In this document: one piece after another, positions 84 through 20,699 of the stretch | Numbering within the stretch: the stretch's first letter is position 1 | Layout of the letters: every line of letters starts with the position of its first letter | Source of the DNA: a virus | IMG/VR virus record: IMGVR_UViG_3300011114_000435 | Span: 1 to 25,351 of that record | DNA length: 25,351 nucleotides | Direction: 5' to 3' (one strand) | Position numbers and translations under genes: made by a program | Notes under the pieces: model-generated | What the model saw: the letters and a program-made list of their open reading frames with translations, nothing else | Database searches by the model: none | What the model was told of the DNA's origin: nothing

Positions 84-1280
84 ATGCCCCTACGTCCTCC
101 GGCTGGCTTTAGGTCTGCGTTTTATGATCCACTGAAGGTTGCTGATGCGCCGACCATTGGCACGGCTACGGCTGGCGACGCGCAGGCTTCTGTGACGTTT
201 ACAGCGCCTTCTAACGTGGGTGGCAGCGCAATTACGCAATACTATGCTGTTTCTGATCCTAGCCAGATTACAGGTAATGCAGCGTCTTCTCCGGTTACTG
301 TCACGGGGCTGACGAACGGCACGCCATATACGTTCCGCGTCTGGGCGCTGAATAGCTACGGGCCTTCGCCTTATAGCGCAGCGACAGGAAGTGTGACGCC
401 TGCGGAAATTAGGGGCATTTTTGCTGGAGGAACAAATCAATCGGCCTCTTATGTTAATGTTATTGATTATGTGTTAATAAGCACTTTAGGAAACGCGACA
501 GATTTTGGGGATTTAACAACCGAAACTTCATATTTAACTGCATGCTCTTCTTCTGTAAGGGGGGTTTTTGGCGGCGGAATTACTAACGTTTCTACCACCA
601 ATGTTATTCAATATGTTACCATAACTTCAAATGGCAATGCTACAGATTTTGGTGATTTATTAAATACAGTTTACAGTTTAGCGGCTTGTTCATCAAGCAC
701 GAGAGGGGTTTTTGGGGGTGGTGTCAATATAAATGTGCTTCAATATATTACTATTTCATCTACTGGCAATGCCACAGATTTTGGAGATTTAAATGTTCAA
801 GTTTATGCATTAGCTGGAACATCTTCAACAACTAGAGGGTTGTTTGCTGGCGGGCAAGATTCATCTGGATTGATTAACATTATTAATTATATAACCATAG
901 CGTCTACAGGGAATTCTTCGGATTTTGGAGATTTAACTATAGCCAGAAATAATTTAGGGGCCTGCTCGTCCGCTACGAGAGCAGTTTTTTGTGGTGGGAA
1001 TACTGGCGGCCTTGGCGATCCAAATGTGCTTGATTATGTCACTATAGCTTCTACTGGCAACGCTGTAGATTTTGGTGACTTACCCAATGCTTTGATAGAG
1101 TTGGCTGCGACCTCTTCTTCAACACGAGGAGTAATAGGTGGTGGGTACAATGCCACTACATGGACAAATGCAATTAATTATATAACAATTTCATCAACAG
1201 GAAACGCTACAAATTTTGGACAATTAACTGTTAGAAGGAATAACCTTGCCGCCTGCTCTAACGGTCACGGAGGACTTTAA
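84..1280 (+). CDS. Tail fibre-like protein: FN3 domain plus six kelch-like repeats
   Basis: A 398-residue protein. Residues 1-21 form a short N-terminal segment. Residues about 22-106 are a fibronectin type III domain with the usual VTVTGLTNGTPYTFRV core strands. From R110 to the end there are six repeats of about 44-49 residues with consensus R-G-V-F-G-G-G, a variable loop, NVIxYITIxSTGNATDFGDL, then xxxxLAACSSST. The R..GG, aromatic and D-G spacing resembles kelch motifs, so a six-bladed beta-propeller is inferred. The protein is probably a virion surface protein that binds a receptor or glycan, but nothing in the sequence shows the ligand. The start ATG has AGGA seven bases upstream. The repeat part is AT-rich (23 G+C of 60 at 481-540), unlike the FN3 part. 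The chain ends in SNGHGGL, an ending shared with the next two genes. No catalytic motif is seen. Confidence 0.8.
   Translation: MPLRPPAGFRSAFYDPLKVADAPTIGTATAGDAQASVTFTAPSNVGGSAITQYYAVSDPSQITGNAASSPVTVTGLTNGTPYTFRVWALNSYGPSPYSAATGSVTPAEIRGIFAGGTNQSASYVNVIDYVLISTLGNATDFGDLTTETSYLTACSSSVRGVFGGGITNVSTTNVIQYVTITSNGNATDFGDLLNTVYSLAACSSSTRGVFGGGVNINVLQYITISSTGNATDFGDLNVQVYALAGTSSTTRGLFAGGQDSSGLINIINYITIASTGNSSDFGDLTIARNNLGACSSATRAVFCGGNTGGLGDPNVLDYVTIASTGNAVDFGDLPNALIELAATSSSTRGVIGGGYNATTWTNAINYITISSTGNATNFGQLTVRRNNLAACSNGHGGL
411..1277 (+). repeat. Six protein-level kelch-like repeats, propeller 1
   Basis: Six successive repeat units are visible by their DFGDL-type cores (TDFGDL x3, SDFGDL, VDFGDL, TNFGQL), each preceded by an R-G/A-V/L-F-x-G-G start. 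The DNA copies have diverged and are not exact tandem repeats. Each unit has one Cys or small residue at the same place before the R..GG motif. Confidence 0.85.
1269..1273 (+). promoter_or_regulatory. Shine-Dalgarno GGAGG inside the HGGL codons
   Basis: GGAGG lies in the codons CAC GGA GGA of the upstream gene's C-terminal His-Gly-Gly and is nine bases before the ATG at 1283. The same arrangement and spacing recurs at 2231-2235. Confidence 0.75.
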
Positions 1281-1282
1281 TC

Positions 1283-2242
1283 ATGCCATCTTACAGCGGC
1301 GTCTGGAACCTCGTGGCGGTGTATCAGGCGGTGGGGGCGGGGCAGTGGAACCCGCCAGTAGGAGATCGTGGTCTTTTTGGGGGTGGTCAGCTTGCATCTT
1401 CAAGCTACTCTAACACCATTGATTATATAGCAATCGCCACTACCGGAAACGCTGCTGATTTTGGTGATTTAACTGTTATTGAATCTTTTCCAGCTTCATG
1501 CGCTTCAGCAACAAGGGCGCTTTTTTATGCTGGATATGATGGCGCGGCCAACAATACAATTTCTTATGTTACTATTGCTTCAACAGGGAACGCATTAGAT
1601 TTTGGAGATATTTATAATAACACTTATGTTGGTTATGGTTGTTCAAATTCAACAAGAGGTTTAATGGGTGGTGGTTATAGTGTTTCAACGCCAACTAATG
1701 TAATTAGTTATATGACTATAGCTACTACGGGAAATTCAACAGATTTTGGTGATATGACAGTTGCAAGATATGGCACGCAATCTTGCGCGTCGTCTACTAG
1801 GGCGGTTTTTGGGGCTGGTTACGTAGATCCACCGTCAACAAATGTTATGGATTATGTGACTATTGCAACCACGGGCAATGCAATTGATTTTGGCGATTGC
1901 GAACCTAGACAATTACTTGGCGGCGGGTGTTCATCTGCAACCAGAGGATTGTTTGGGGGAAGTAATGATAGCACCAACGTGATCCAATATATTACAATAG
2001 CTTCTACGGGCAACACCACTGATTTTGGTGATCTTATTAATGCTATGGGTAGAAATTGTGGAACATCAAATTCTACTAGAGGTGTTTTTGCTGCTGGCTC
2101 TACAAGCGCAACCACAAGCACCGCTTTTAACGCTATTAACTATGTAACCATTGCGACAACTGGTAATGCCACGGATTTCGGGGATACTAGCGTTGCGCGA
2201 CTTGGATTGACTGGCACATCTAACGCCCACGGAGGATTGTAA
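1283..2242 (+). CDS. Kelch-like six-repeat tail/receptor-binding protein
   Basis: A 319-residue paralogue of the preceding gene without the FN3 domain. Residues 1-28 include SGVWNLVAVYQAVGAGQW. A similar GVW-L...W motif starts the next gene and may be the docking segment to the virion. Six repeats run from R29, marked by ADFGDL, LDFGDI, TDFGDM, IDFGDC, TDFGDL and TDFGDT, and the protein ends in SNAHGGL. A single six-bladed propeller is inferred. The start is ATG, two bases after the previous stop, with GGAGG nine bases upstream. The repeats are AT-rich compared with the short N-terminal part, which is G-rich. Host binding is an inference from repeat type and tandem position; no ligand site can be named. 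Confidence 0.75.
   Translation: MPSYSGVWNLVAVYQAVGAGQWNPPVGDRGLFGGGQLASSSYSNTIDYIAIATTGNAADFGDLTVIESFPASCASATRALFYAGYDGAANNTISYVTIASTGNALDFGDIYNNTYVGYGCSNSTRGLMGGGYSVSTPTNVISYMTIATTGNSTDFGDMTVARYGTQSCASSTRAVFGAGYVDPPSTNVMDYVTIATTGNAIDFGDCEPRQLLGGGCSSATRGLFGGSNDSTNVIQYITIASTGNTTDFGDLINAMGRNCGTSNSTRGVFAAGSTSATTSTAFNAINYVTIATTGNATDFGDTSVARLGLTGTSNAHGGL
1367..2239 (+). repeat. Six protein-level kelch-like repeats, propeller 2
   Basis: Six units of about 45-52 residues, each with an R/G-x-F-x-G-G/A start and an STGNxxDFGD core. The unit number equals that of propeller 1. Confidence 0.8.
2231..2235 (+). promoter_or_regulatory. Shine-Dalgarno GGAGG inside the HGGL codons
   Basis: GGAGG in the codons CAC GGA GGA of the upstream gene's last residues, nine bases before GTG 2245. 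This supports GTG as the start of the next gene. Confidence 0.75.
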
Positions 2243-2244
2243 CC

Positions 2245-4164
2245 GTGTCCATCAAGAACTGGAACGCCGGGATTATTCGTCCTGTAGCTGTCGCGCCTGC
2301 TGGCCCCTATCAGGATGGCGCCGCGAAGGGCGTGTGGACATTGGATCAGGCGGCGTTTTGGCAGAAGCAAGGGCTGTGGCCGATTGCGGGGAATGTTGCG
2401 CCGACTGGTTTGTTTGGGGGAGGCTATACTGGAAGTAGCTATGTAAACACAATAGATCGTTTGATCCTTAATACAGCAGGCAATGCAACTGACTTTGGTG
2501 ATTTGCTTCAAAGTTTGTATGCGACAGCCGCTTGCTCGTCTTCTACTAGAGGAATTTTTGCTGGCGGATTTACAGGGTCAGTCCGTGTAAATGTTATTCA
2601 ATATGTGGCTTTTTCTACATCAGGTAACTCTGTAGATTTTGGCGACTTATCTCAAACAAAAATGGCATTTGGTGGCGCCTCTAATTATGTGAGAGGTGTA
2701 TTTGGTGGTGGCGATGATGGGGTAAATAATGTTAATGTAATAGAGTATATCACTATTGCTTCCACTGGAGATTCTACTGATTTTGGTGATTTGACAATTT
2801 CTGTGTCTAGCAATACCGCATGCTCTTCTTCTGTTCGCGCTGTTTTTGCTGGAGGATTAAGCCCAAATTCTAATGTTATTGGGTACATTACAATAGCATC
2901 AACTGGAAATGCTACAGATTTTGGCGATTTAACTGTCGCTAGATACAATCTTGCGGGCTGCTCCTCTGCAACTCGCGGGATTTTTGGCGGAGGAAACTCC
3001 GGTTCAAATTCAAATGTAATTGATTATATTACCATTGCAACCATTGGAAACGCTTTAGATTTTGGCGATTTATTGTCTGCTACCAATGCTATAAGCGCCT
3101 GCGCATCAGACACCCAGGGGTTTTTTGCTGGCGGTGTTATTTCTGGTGTTGCAACAAATGTTGTTCAGTATGTGACTATAGCTTCAACAGGAAATGCTGT
3201 AGATTTTGGAGATTTAACTCAAGCACGCTCTGGCGCTGCCGCCTGCTCATCTACTGCGGCTGCTGTCCAGCCTACTCCGACAAGTTCTGCAACTGCCCTG
3301 TTTGCTGGATACTACGGCCCCGCTAATTATTACTTTATCCAGTATTTGAATATTGCCACGACAGGTTATCAGAACTATTACTTTGGGAATCAGTTCGACA
3401 ACCGCTACGGTTTGGCCGGGTTTGGTTCTTCAACTCGTGCGGTTTGGAGTGGTGGAGCAGGCACCCAAGACCCAAGCAACGTGATTGATTACGTCACAGT
3501 TGCTTCTACAGGCAACGCTTTAGATTTTGGTGATGCCACTCAAGCGCGCCGGTATGTAGCTGGACTTTCAAACGACACTCGCGGGCTTGCTTGCGGCGGG
3601 TACACCGGATCGGCGTACACCAACACGATTGATTACGTGACGATTGCGTCTGTTGGCAATGCCACGGACTTTGGCGATTTGACAGTCGCAAGAAACGGTG
3701 CCGCTGGTTGTGCGTCAACCACTCGCGGGTTAATTGGGGGCGGCTCCACTGGCAGTGGCAACTCTAATGTTGTTGACTACGTGACGATTGCATCTGCAGG
3801 CAACGCCACCGATTTTGGCGATTTAACAGCAGCCAGAAGCTCAGTGGCGTCATGTTCTTCCAGTACCCGTGGTATCTTTTCTGGTGGATTTAACGGCAGC
3901 ATATACACCAACATCATTGATTACGTAACCATCGCTTCTGTCGGAAACGCTGTTGATTTTGGAGATTTGACTTCGGGTTCTTATGGTGGTTCCGCCGCGT
4001 CATCTTCAACACGCGGAGTAATTTCAATTGGTGACAACGGATCACTTACTGCAAATATTGACTACGTGACCATTGCCAGCACGGGCAATAGCGCAAACTT
4101 TGGTTATTTGATCGTCCCAACTTCAAACCTTGGAGCTTGCTCCAATGCCCATGGTGGGCTCTAA
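2245..4164 (+). CDS. Double-propeller kelch-like tail/receptor-binding protein (12 repeats)
   Basis: A 639-residue protein starting at GTG, two bases after the previous stop. Residues 1-53 hold an N-terminal segment with GVWTLDQAAFWQKQGLWP, similar to the GVW motif of the previous gene. Two sets of six kelch-like repeats follow. The first (about residues 54-339) is AT-rich. Then comes a Thr/Pro/Ala-rich linker around AAAVQPTPTSSAT. The second set (from about residue 349) starts with a divergent unit (FGNQFDNRY in place of DFGDL) and is GC-richer (35 G+C of 60 at 3661-3720). The protein ends in SNAHGGL. Two linked propellers are inferred. It looks like a fusion of two single-propeller genes in which the HGGL end of the first was replaced by the linker. 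A surface role in host recognition is likely but not shown. Confidence 0.78.
   Translation: MSIKNWNAGIIRPVAVAPAGPYQDGAAKGVWTLDQAAFWQKQGLWPIAGNVAPTGLFGGGYTGSSYVNTIDRLILNTAGNATDFGDLLQSLYATAACSSSTRGIFAGGFTGSVRVNVIQYVAFSTSGNSVDFGDLSQTKMAFGGASNYVRGVFGGGDDGVNNVNVIEYITIASTGDSTDFGDLTISVSSNTACSSSVRAVFAGGLSPNSNVIGYITIASTGNATDFGDLTVARYNLAGCSSATRGIFGGGNSGSNSNVIDYITIATIGNALDFGDLLSATNAISACASDTQGFFAGGVISGVATNVVQYVTIASTGNAVDFGDLTQARSGAAACSSTAAAVQPTPTSSATALFAGYYGPANYYFIQYLNIATTGYQNYYFGNQFDNRYGLAGFGSSTRAVWSGGAGTQDPSNVIDYVTVASTGNALDFGDATQARRYVAGLSNDTRGLACGGYTGSAYTNTIDYVTIASVGNATDFGDLTVARNGAAGCASTTRGLIGGGSTGSGNSNVVDYVTIASAGNATDFGDLTAARSSVASCSSSTRGIFSGGFNGSIYTNIIDYVTIASVGNAVDFGDLTSGSYGGSAASSSTRGVISIGDNGSLTANIDYVTIASTGNSANFGYLIVPTSNLGACSNAHGGL
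2404..3260 (+). repeat. Six kelch-like repeats, propeller 3 (AT-rich)
   Basis: Six units with cores TDFGDL, VDFGDL, TDFGDL, TDFGDL, LDFGDL and VDFGDL. The last ends in AACSST and runs into the proline/threonine linker. Confidence 0.8.
3289..4161 (+). repeat. Six kelch-like repeats, propeller 4 (GC-rich)
   Basis: Six units. The first is divergent (YYFGNQF), followed by LDFGDA, TDFGDL, TDFGDL, VDFGDL and ANFGYL. The base composition is close to the phage backbone, unlike propellers 1-3. Confidence 0.78.
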
Positions 4165-4184
4165 CAACAAACAGGAGAAATCTT

Positions 4185-5015
4185 TTGTCTAATGACCTGA
4201 TTATCGGCAACATCAACACTGCTCTGGCTGTCAAGAAGCCGGAATACAATCTGATGTTGAAAAACATTCAGGACCGCATGCCTGCTGTCGTTCGCGACAC
4301 CAGCAACTTCCACAAGTCTCACTCCCAGTTCATGCAAGTAACGCTGGATGTCACCGCGATTACGCCGATCCGGTCCATCAAGCACACGCTTGCCGAGATT
4401 GACCGCACCCGGTCAGCCCTGCAGGAAGCCTACATTGGTCTGCGGAAGAAGCAGGTTGAACTGAAGCGCAAGCAGGCGGAATTGGAAAAGGCAGAGGATG
4501 CTTTTGACCGCGAGATGCTTGAGATCGAAATTCTGGAACTGAACAGCCACATCGAGGGCACCCAGAACCACGTCAACGGCGCAATCCGTAAGATGAATTT
4601 CTTTGTCAACCAGCACAAGCAGTTGCTGGAGAAGATTGGCAAGGAAGAGATTACCGAGGAAGACTACGAGCGCGAAGAAGCCAAGTATCATATCATGACG
4701 GCGATGAAGCAGGGTCTGACCGCTGCCCGCAGCCGGAATGGCATGATTGACGAGGGTAATTTCATCTACCTTTTTGACCTCGGCATTAACGCCGCCCAGG
4801 CCCAGGCAGAAGTCTATGCTTACCTCCACATGGAGAACCAGCTTATCTCTGAGGGCAAGGCTCCCACGCATGAGATGACCATGCGGTGGCTGGAAGCTTG
4901 CGCCGACAAGTGGCTGGATTGCCCAGAGACGTTTGCCAAGCGCCGGGGCTTCAGCATCTTTGACAAGTCCAGCCTGACCAATGTGCCGCAAATTACGCAA
5001 GAGGCCGCCGAATAA
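4185..5015 (+). CDS. Coiled-coil phage protein of unknown function
   Basis: I start this gene at TTG 4185 (protein MSNDLIIGNINTALAVKK...), because AGGAG sits at 4173-4177, seven bases upstream. The only earlier ATG (4137) would overlap the preceding gene by 28 bases without a good ribosome site. The product is 276 residues, soluble and highly charged. Its middle (about residues 55-170) is Leu/Glu/Lys/Arg-rich with clear heptad character (LRKKQVELKRKQAELEKAED), so a long coiled coil is predicted. No family was recognised and no membrane segment or catalytic motif is seen. It lies between the repeat proteins and a glycosyltransferase, with a TAATG overlap to the latter. It may be a minor virion or assembly protein, but this is a guess from position. 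Confidence 0.7.
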   Translation: MSNDLIIGNINTALAVKKPEYNLMLKNIQDRMPAVVRDTSNFHKSHSQFMQVTLDVTAITPIRSIKHTLAEIDRTRSALQEAYIGLRKKQVELKRKQAELEKAEDAFDREMLEIEILELNSHIEGTQNHVNGAIRKMNFFVNQHKQLLEKIGKEEITEEDYEREEAKYHIMTAMKQGLTAARSRNGMIDEGNFIYLFDLGINAAQAQAEVYAYLHMENQLISEGKAPTHEMTMRWLEACADKWLDCPETFAKRRGFSIFDKSSLTNVPQITQEAAE

Positions 5016-5752
5016 TGCACCTCGTGATCGGCACGCCCTGCTACGGCGGCATGATGTGTACTGAGTACACCCAGTCGCTGCTGGCGCTGAAAGAGGCGTG
5101 CATGCAGTACAACATCAAGATGACGTGCATCTTCTTGGGCAATGAAAGTCTGATCCAGCGGGGTCGGAATACGATTGCCCATCTCTTCCTGAAGATGGAA
5201 GACGCCACGCATTTGATGTTTATTGACGCTGACCAGAAGTTTATCCCCAATGATATCGCCCGGATGATCAAGGCGGATAAGGGGATTATTGGTGGCGCGG
5301 TGCCCATGAAGGGCATCAATTGGAGCCGGGTAAAGATGGGCGCGCTGCTTAATCACCCGGATCTTGGCAAGCTGACGGGCATCTTCAACATCAACAAACT
5401 GCCCGGCCACGAGATGATCACGGCCGAAATGCCGTTCCAAGTGAAGCATGTTGGCACTGGGTTTATGCTGATCCGCCGGGATGTGTTTGAAGCCCTACAG
5501 GATCATGTCGGCTGGTATAAGAATGGCGGTGTTAGCATTCCGCCGGAAGACAAGGTTTACGACTTCTTTAAGGTCCAGAATGTGGACAATGAATTGTTGT
5601 CTGAGGACTACAATTTCTGTCACATGTATCGCGAGAATGGTGGGACTGTTTGGGTCGCGCCTTGGTGCGAACTGGGCCACTTTGGCGCGTATTTGTTCAG
5701 CGGGCAGTATGCCCAGAGCGGAGGGTTAGAAGATGGCGCATCATTGCATTAA
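5015..5752 (+). CDS. GT-A-like glycosyltransferase
   Basis: A 245-residue protein with a Rossmann-like N-terminus (MHLVIGTPCYGG) and the motif FIDADQ, where D71-A-D73 is the DXD-type pair that binds metal and nucleotide-sugar in GT-A enzymes. RGRN at 49-52 and the C-terminal ELGHFGAY, whose His is often a metal ligand in such enzymes, also fit. It would transfer a sugar from an activated donor to an unknown acceptor in the cytoplasm. Possible targets are the phage's own surface proteins, host surface polysaccharide or phage DNA; the sequence does not decide. It overlaps the upstream stop by one base (TAATG) and the next gene by 20 bases, so the genes are probably translationally coupled. It is the usual size for small phage glycosyltransferases with no accessory domain. 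Confidence 0.72.
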   Translation: MHLVIGTPCYGGMMCTEYTQSLLALKEACMQYNIKMTCIFLGNESLIQRGRNTIAHLFLKMEDATHLMFIDADQKFIPNDIARMIKADKGIIGGAVPMKGINWSRVKMGALLNHPDLGKLTGIFNINKLPGHEMITAEMPFQVKHVGTGFMLIRRDVFEALQDHVGWYKNGGVSIPPEDKVYDFFKVQNVDNELLSEDYNFCHMYRENGGTVWVAPWCELGHFGAYLFSGQYAQSGGLEDGASLH

Positions 5753-7689: not shown

Positions 7690-8322
7690 ATGTCCTACAC
7701 TATGACGTATGACAGTCTGCTGGTCGATCTTCGTCGCTACCTTGAGCGTGGTTTCACCGAGGAAAGCGACCAGATTGTTTATGACCAGTTGCCTCGCCTG
7801 ATCACGTTGGGCGAGCGTAGGATTGCGCGTGAACTGAAGATTGAAGGTTTCATTCGCGCCGTTCAGACGCCGCTGCAGGTTGGCGTTGCAGTGTATCTGA
7901 AGCCAGACCGCTGGCGCGATACGGTCAGCATGACGGTGAACGGTTCTCCGATCTTTGCCCGGTCTTATGAGTATTGCCGCAACTATTGGCCTGATGAAGC
8001 GCAGACGGCAGCGCCGCAGTTTTATGCGGATTATGATTATCAGCATTGGCTGATCACGCCGACGCCTGATGCGACGGATACTCTGGAGATTTTGTATTAC
8101 GAACAGCCTGCGTTGCTGGGTGATGATTTTCAGACCAATTGGCTGACGGAATATGCCCCTGACTTGTTGTTGTATGCGGCCTTGTTAGAGGCCACGCCCT
8201 TCTTGAAGAAGGATGAGCGCATTCAGACTTGGCAGGCTTTGTATGATCGTGCGGCGCAGGCGATTAGCGGCGAGGATTTGAAGCGCATCTTGGATCGTAG
8301 CGCCAATAGGAGTGAAGCGTAA
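7690..8322 (+). CDS. Head-tail adaptor protein (SU10/P22 gp4-like)
   Basis: A 210-residue mostly helical protein. Its opening, YDSLLVDLRRYLERG...D..VYDQLPRLITLGERRIARELKI, is the pattern of phage adaptor proteins of the SU10 group. Later features of the family, such as a SYEYCRNYWPD segment, the WLITPTP turn and the C-terminal YAALLEATPFLKKDERIQTW helix, are also present. In the virion, copies form a ring joining the portal to the nozzle/tail hub. GGAG lies five bases before the ATG. The stop overlaps the next ATG (TAATG). The adaptor usually follows capsid genes; here it follows lysis genes, so the head genes must lie elsewhere. Confidence 0.8.
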   Translation: MSYTMTYDSLLVDLRRYLERGFTEESDQIVYDQLPRLITLGERRIARELKIEGFIRAVQTPLQVGVAVYLKPDRWRDTVSMTVNGSPIFARSYEYCRNYWPDEAQTAAPQFYADYDYQHWLITPTPDATDTLEILYYEQPALLGDDFQTNWLTEYAPDLLLYAALLEATPFLKKDERIQTWQALYDRAAQAISGEDLKRILDRSANRSEA

Positions 8323-19959: not shown

Positions 19960-20147
19960 TTTCGGCCTATTGTCTCGTTTTGTTGGATCCTGATGTCGCT
20001 GTTCCGGTAGGTCCAGCATTCGCGGGTATCGTCTTGGAAGCAAACCCAGAGAAGATCTGCCTCTGGCCCGTAATCAATCACAAGATGCGCCCAGGCTTTA
20101 CCTCTCGGTGTTATCACTGGAAGGGGCGGGTTCAGTTGTTGAATCAT
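19956..20147 (-). CDS. Small phage protein with a WVCFQDDTRECWTY motif
   Basis: A 63-residue protein. The core DYGPEADLLWVCFQDDTREC followed by WTYRNSDIRIQQNETIGR looks like a conserved small phage protein that I have seen among phages of Rhizobiales, but I cannot give it a function. The start lies 50 bases inside the end of the upstream regulator gene, with GGAAAG upstream. The stop forms an ATGA overlap with the next gene. A compact alpha/beta fold is likely. Confidence 0.65.
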   Translation of the reverse strand: MIQQLNPPLPVITPRGKAWAHLVIDYGPEADLLWVCFQDDTRECWTYRNSDIRIQQNETIGRK

Positions 20148-20403
20148 TTTGGCTTTCCATCATGGCGGCGGCCTTTTCGACTGAGATAATCAGGCTGGAG
20201 AGTTTGACGTTGCAGACGGTGGCGAAGGTCACGAGGTGGGCCCAGCTGGGTGATCCCCGGCCGTCCTCCCAAGATGCTACTGCCGATCGAGATACGTTCA
20301 CCTTCCGGGCCAACTCAGTCATGGACCAGTTGCGGTATTTACGCGCCGCGCGGAGGGAAACTCCCAACGCGCGTGCGTAAAGATCATTTTTTGCCCGTGG
20401 CAT
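20098..20403 (-). CDS. XRE-family helix-turn-helix regulator
   Basis: A 101-residue protein. Residues about 11-72 are an HTH of the XRE/Cro type: SMTELARKVNVSRSAVASWE (27-46) is the two-helix core, with W45 and E46 at the usual recognition-helix end, followed by DGRGSPSWAHLVTFATVCNV. The C-terminal 25 residues are polar and disordered. It should bind DNA as a dimer and may control this operon or the divergent switch. The target is not shown. ATG overlaps the upstream stop by one base (TAATG). Confidence 0.85.
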   Translation of the reverse strand: MPRAKNDLYARALGVSLRAARKYRNWSMTELARKVNVSRSAVASWEDGRGSPSWAHLVTFATVCNVKLSSLIISVEKAAAMMESQNDSTTEPAPSSDNTER

Positions 20404-20699
20404 TAAACGGCAAGCATCTTCTCAAGGAAGGCTGCCCCCTTGGAGGTGATTAAAATTTGGACCTCGCGCTTGTCGCCTTTCTGCTCGCGCACGCGCCGCA
20501 GGAGGCCCTTCTCTTCCAATTTGTTTACGGTGCGAGAGATTGCCGCCGCCGACACCTTCAGCGCCTTAGCTGTCTCGCTAATGAGGGGCGCATCGTCCAT
20601 GATGTCTGCGTGCAAGAGGATCTTGAGGCTCAGCGTGCCGAGTTTGCCGGCTTTGCTGAGTTGGTCAAACATGACGATTGCTCTGTCTAGGGTGTTCAT
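20403..20699 (-). CDS. MarR-like winged-helix regulator
   Basis: A 98-residue protein. A short helix (MNTLDRAIVMFDQLSKA) is followed by a winged helix-turn-helix: ISETAKALKVSAAAISRTVN is the recognition unit, then KLEEKGLLRRVREQKGDKRE as the wing turn and VQILITSKGAAFLEKML. This is the MarR-type arrangement, but shorter than normal MarR proteins (about 140 residues), so the dimerisation helices are reduced. It probably represses or activates phage or host promoters. The ribosome site AGGAG is formed by the last codons of the upstream gene, in the string AGACAGGAGATAAAAATG. Confidence 0.8.
   Translation of the reverse strand: MNTLDRAIVMFDQLSKAGKLGTLSLKILLHADIMDDAPLISETAKALKVSAAAISRTVNKLEEKGLLRRVREQKGDKREVQILITSKGAAFLEKMLAV

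Follow-up and report, generated by a model that had tools for sequence, protein, structure and literature searches.

Three neighbouring genes of a phage DNA are likely to specify the adhesins with which a tailed phage recognises its host; each protein would combine an N-terminal module fixed to the virion with one or two Kelch-type six-bladed rings that hold the ligand and have been diversified by whole-ring exchange. A widespread, unnamed phage protein family gains a predicted fold and a likely function from this assignment, and the system it describes is one of host recognition in which the exchanged unit seems to be an entire closed ring whose size stays at six.

Ring genes of the window and their predicted fold

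The source DNA is an IMG/VR virus record of 25,351 bases, referred to here in its entirety as the window. Genes 1, 2 and 3 carry 6, 6 and 12 repeats, respectively, and are arranged as follows.

84..1280, plus strand: gene 1, with an FN3 domain at about 150-383 and then one six-bladed ring at about 408-1277
1269..1273, plus strand: Shine-Dalgarno GGAGG of gene 2, within the His-Gly-Gly codons of gene 1
1283..2242, plus strand: gene 2, a short GVW..W anchor and one six-bladed ring at about 1367-2239
2231..2235, plus strand: Shine-Dalgarno GGAGG of gene 3, within the His-Gly-Gly codons of gene 2
2245-4164, plus strand: gene 3 overall, 12 repeats as 6 + linker + 6
2245..2397, plus strand: N-terminal anchor of gene 3, WNAGIIRP..GVWTL..QGLWPIAGN
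2404..3258, plus strand: ring A of gene 3, six blades, from repeat calls and structure prediction
3259..3294, plus strand: inter-ring linker of gene 3, AAVQPTPTSSA, from the sequence
3292..4164, plus strand: ring B of gene 3, six blades, with an HGGL end that lacks GGAGG
4179..5015, plus strand: conserved neighbour gene directly downstream of the ring array, marking the slot in related phages

Repeat counting confirmed the quanta of 6, 6 and 6+6, with a Pro/Thr linker, that had been proposed in a sequence-only reading of this DNA. That reading took DFGDL as the repeat core and counted the repeats correctly, but only 16 of the 24 cores are literally DFGDL. DFGD is found in 21, and the rest are NFGQ, YFGN and NFGY; the position after DFGD varies in gene 2 (I, M, C, T). 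Repeats in the three genes are 44-51 residues long, apart from one beside the linker that measures 59 as cut.

AlphaFold2, supplied with an alignment of 58 proteins from the window and related loci, modelled gene 2 as a closed six-bladed ring with four strands per repeat (pLDDT 94.1, pTM 0.90). When this model was compared to solved structures using Foldseek, the matches included KLHL12 (E = 1.3e-21, target TM 0.89), KEAP1 and designed six-bladed SAKe6 rings, and solved Kelch domains gave TM values of 0.88-0.90. The prediction for gene 3 (pLDDT 81, pTM 0.50), whose best structural matches span one ring, fits two flexibly joined rings. Taken together, these models make a six-bladed Kelch-type propeller the near-certain fold of the rings, and they bear out the earlier suggestion of a constrained six-bladed fold. 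In the strand list of the gene 2 model, the sequence repeat runs from strand b through to strand a. Each repeat would contribute strands b, c and d, and the chain end would supply strand a of the first blade to close the ring. Closure by a C-terminal strand of this kind would account for the constant count of six.

Across 712 repeat units, the Gly-Gly doublet that follows strand b, a Kelch hallmark, is retained (Gly occupies column 6 in 89% of units and column 7 in 95%), and the other conserved columns are likewise structural Gly, Phe, Thr and Asn. The Trp that follows a Tyr at a set spacing in typical Kelch repeats is absent, with Phe-Gly in its place (97% and 100%). Pfam Kelch models gave no match for the three window genes at E values up to 10, nor for 58 relatives at E values up to 0.1. 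Because of the missing Trp, its replacement by Phe-Gly and the lack of an HMM match, the ring family has the Kelch fold yet lies outside the Pfam Kelch sequence families. Searches of Pfam, NCBIfam and PDB sequences returned no convincing relative of the ring proteins; scattered matches to OxoDH_E1alpha_N, acylphosphatase and ArfA were attributed to chance similarity of the repeats. A phage collection yielded nothing when searched with gene 2 and only S-SKS1 when searched with gene 3 and a ring protein from locus L009. Our literature search found no paper on the DFGDL ring family.

The N-terminal part of gene 1 contains the FN3 domain (PF00041, E = 1.1e-07) and matches the minor tail protein family phrog_6977. 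Elsewhere in the window, a conserved phage protein downstream of the rings (5015-5752, phrog_1574) by eye resembles a GT-A type glycosyltransferase, and two small ORFs on the minus strand (20098-20699) look by eye like helix-turn-helix and MarR-type regulators.

The placement of Shine-Dalgarno sites within the ends of genes 1 and 2 recurs among the relatives. We collected 105 genes ending in His-Gly-Gly or Asn-Gly-Gly, 61 of which have a gene start just downstream. The glycines are coded GGAGGN in 51 of these 61 and are coded otherwise in 35 of the 44 genes that have no such start (Fisher p = 1e-10). This bias indicates that the Gly-Gly codons double as a Shine-Dalgarno site. That His-Gly-Gly is conserved solely for this purpose was rejected, since the residues persist, written with other Gly codons, in the last genes, as at the end of gene 3.

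Six blades per ring across related loci

A repeat profile was run over 304 related loci (numbered with the prefix L), and distinct complete ORFs were counted. Exactly 6 (298 ORFs), 12 (71) or 18 (3) repeats were found in 372 of 395 ORFs; a first batch of relatives had given 115 of 129. The six-fold regularity is far beyond chance, and related phages, like the window, keep to multiples of six. Neither result that the sequence-only reading had named as a refutation, a predicted ring that does not close or a freely varying count in relatives, was obtained. The ORFs that break the rule are mostly split genes or genes with a broken frame, and their pieces together make six or twelve repeats. More than 560 matches to the ring family were obtained in one scan of viral contigs.

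Ring genes were also found on cellular contigs. L067-L072 obey the six-repeat rule, one ring of L070 being cut by the contig end; L073 is weak and L074 has no qualifying ORF. The assemblies carrying the ring genes of L067-L073 are labelled Parcubacteria, Epulopiscium, Pirellulales, Maricaulis and others, and these are possibly phage contigs binned with cells. Stand-alone ORFs with two blades only, at L030 2297-2689 and L034 369-992, are exceptions to six; deletions, or rings assembled from three copies, are speculative explanations. L009 (1-14642) holds at least 10 ring genes in 14.6 kb, with 58 blades counted and both ends cut, and its ring genes have a different type of N-terminal module, RFNTD..LEFYDG..W.

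Six rings are split into two ORFs (L059 at 6610 and 8296, L060 at 6583, L120 at 5381, L123 at 4107 and L126 at 5996), with pieces that add up to six blades. The stop lies in the b-c loop, at or just past the place of the Gly-Gly doublet, and an in-frame ATG is present at the stop. Five of the junctions overlap as TAATG or TGATG, and one has its ATG three bases past the stop. Both features occur together in 0.75% of out-of-frame stops in intact rings and in 6 of 8 breaks (binomial p = 5e-12, a rough value given that the null ignores how breaks arise). L005 and L015 contain other broken rings, that of L005 probably being a plain frameshift because the 99.8% identical L006 is intact. The proposal that the split genes form functional two-chain rings is fair but unproven; if functional, they would be natural two-chain propellers.

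A variable face and exchange of whole rings

Variation among the 712 units is concentrated in columns 8-14 (the b-c loop) and 36-42 (the d-a loop), and the a-b and c-d turns are conserved. In an antiparallel meander, the b-c and d-a loops share one face, and KEAP1 binds peptides with the face bearing these loops. With ring faces assigned by topology, the variable loops would lie together and probably contact the receptor, leaving the conserved turns on the opposite face. Loop identity was 17-18% in every comparison, including blades at the same position of the same slot in different phages, and core identity was 61-66%. In 17 pairs of near-identical rings, dN/dS was approximately 0.35 in the loops and 0.11 in the core, indicating relaxed purifying selection in the loops; positive selection in the loops was not found within these pairs.

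Anchors and rings differ in relatedness. Between phages, same-slot anchors share 71-79% identity and the rings that follow them 53-56%, with 54% for unrelated rings; by this sequence measure, rings keep no memory of their slot, same-slot rings being no more alike than different-slot rings. A tree of the 24 window blades, which the sequence-only reading had suggested for distinguishing clustering by propeller from clustering by position, showed none by propeller (14 label changes against a mean of 14.0 after shuffling); blade 6 was the one position that clustered. That reading had also attributed the array to gene duplication and fusion. Since the blades do not group by gene, rings resemble one another independently of slot and rings are exchanged between phages, the data do not support the idea that duplication and fusion within this phage gave rise to the array.

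Exchange is seen in five near-identical pairs. L002 and L003 share gene 2 (100% identical) and ring A of gene 3 (mostly 98-100%), but they have different rings in gene 1 and at ring B of gene 3, and the replacements start and stop where the rings do. L021 and L022 differ by the replacement of two rings, ring A in one gene and ring B in a second gene, and L044 and L046 by that of one ring; L090/L251 and L116/L202 are two further cases. The same ring also occurs behind different anchors, as in L008 slot 2 and L202 slot 3 (98.9%), L090 slot 3 and L217 slot 1 (97.2%), L080 slot 3 and L169 slot 1 (96.3%, in phages whose flanks are 94.7% identical), and L015 and L020 (89.4%). No shared segment of at least 120 nt at 90% identity or more covered only part of a ring; exchange thus appears to proceed ring by ring, not blade by blade. 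The exchange cases come from metagenome assemblies and are few because close contig pairs are rare; an automatic exchange scan was too strict and missed known pairs.

Anchors are re-used for other cargo as well. ORFs collected by the anchor signature GVW.L...W(P) comprised, as distinct cases, 46 with 12 DFGDL blades, 39 with 6 and 17 with something else. The non-DFGDL cargo includes Laminin_G_3 lectin domains (LamG; L217, 3.7e-50), DUF7483 (L200 and L026), SGL/lactonase-like propeller repeats (L293) and IFALG rings, which have no Pfam family (L222). In L217 and L090, the slot-3 anchors are 88% identical and the downstream DNA 95.5% identical, with a lectin in one versus a Kelch ring in the other. 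The IFALG..TTRNKYTYSG repeats form a second, sequence-distinct six-repeat family on the same anchors (L222 5307-6353, L212 1288-2325, L224, L226 and L229), with six per ORF in seven of eight complete ORFs. In the ring gene at L027 1884-4015, blade 4 is interrupted by a Peptidase_S74 (endosialidase chaperone) segment, which could be a recombination product.

N-terminal modules and neighbouring genes would fit a tail location for the rings. N-terminal modules of L016 match tail fibre and baseplate wedge families. Ring genes of L001 come after an SU10-type adaptor and small genes, and the genes between adaptor and rings gave no informative Pfam match; the window itself encodes an SU10-type adaptor at 7690-8322. 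The neighbour gene at 4179..5015 is 76-89% identical across 80 loci, most of which have a ring gene immediately upstream. A slot shared with lectins, N-terminal modules of tail families and the adaptor nearby together place the rings as putative exchangeable host-recognition heads.

These rings might instead be capsid decorations, structural spacers or intracellular proteins with no part in receptor recognition. Poxvirus Kelch proteins act within cells, and some phage Kelch proteins are virion structural proteins, CBB_552 being an example (PMC5259590). Such roles seem unlikely here, as neither wholesale replacement between near-identical phages nor slot sharing with lectin domains would be expected of them. 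Surface enzymes, either depolymerases or glycan-modifying, that act on the host envelope could undergo the same modular exchange: propellers serve as enzyme folds, SGL/lactonase-like propeller repeats sit behind the same anchor and phage tailspike depolymerases swap as modules on a conserved anchor (PMC12692247). However, the variable loops contain no invariant polar or charged residues of catalytic appearance, the conserved columns are structural and the loops lack positional identity even between same slots, making an enzymatic role quite unlikely.

Strongly variable loops on a constant frame could also be produced by a diversity-generating retroelement or another form of targeted hypermutation. 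We consider this origin highly improbable: none of 23 related records, a set that includes many fragments, contained a reverse transcriptase (PF00078), the loops of near-identical rings are under purifying selection, and close phages differ by whole rings, not by scattered loop positions.

We therefore favor the host-recognition reading, from which we infer a location in the virion and binding to a receptor; the latter, which the sequence-only reading had raised as a possibility, has good though indirect support. Each protein probably uses its N-terminal module for attachment to the virion, and its propellers, one or two six-bladed closed rings, would hold the ligand. Diversity would arise from the exchange of whole rings between phages and anchor slots rather than from hypermutation, probably through recombination in the conserved flanks, namely the anchor, the linker and the gene end. 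To judge from the sequences, such exchange most likely changes which bacterial surfaces the phages can hold. A broader proposal, which we put forward tentatively and do not yet favor, is that phages share a pool in which the inherited unit is a closed six-bladed propeller; whole-ring cassettes would move between slots and phages, some rings would be made as two translationally coupled chains, divided in the b-c loop and reassembling afterwards, and several interchangeable heads, two-chain rings included, would be displayed at once. The hundreds of natural rings on a constant frame would offer a ready test bed for phage host change.

Comparison with known systems

The six-bladed Kelch propellers of KLHL12 and KEAP1 share with the phage rings four-stranded blades, a closed ring of six and Gly-Gly after strand b. 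In contrast, the phage rings are only ~11-14% identical to them, have Phe-Gly for Trp and carry no BTB or other eukaryotic domains. Kelch-type rings are also present in jumbo-phage proteins (Pectobacterium phage CBB_552, phiPA3 and Noxifer virion proteins, BcepSaruman), to which the window rings are distant (~10-17% identity). Some of these proteins have been found in virions, and the accessible part of the same source does not describe arrays of exchangeable rings on shared anchors (PMC5259590). Synechococcus phage S-SKS1 encodes Kelch-like YFGGG repeats, in sets of six adjoining a linker GGASERIKGSR, but these are 25-30% identical and have a different signature, and several S-SKS1 ORFs are interrupted or run off the end of the record.

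Gp45 of Staphylococcus phage phi11 likewise uses a propeller as a presumed receptor-binding platform (PMC4901313). Gp45 is five-bladed and part of a trimer with stem and tower, whereas the rings described here are six-bladed and C-terminal to short anchors. Host-recognition genes in metaviromic islands of marine phages resemble the ring genes in having a conserved N-terminus and a C-terminal recognition domain that varies between close phages (PMC3909814); in our case, the exchanged unit is a closed propeller, fixed in size at six blades and present several times per phage. A conserved N-terminal anchor with an exchangeable C-terminal domain, as found in the ring genes, is a trait of modular phage receptor-binding proteins, and the best reading of what is new here is a variant of such proteins in which tandem exchangeable heads are built on Kelch rings.
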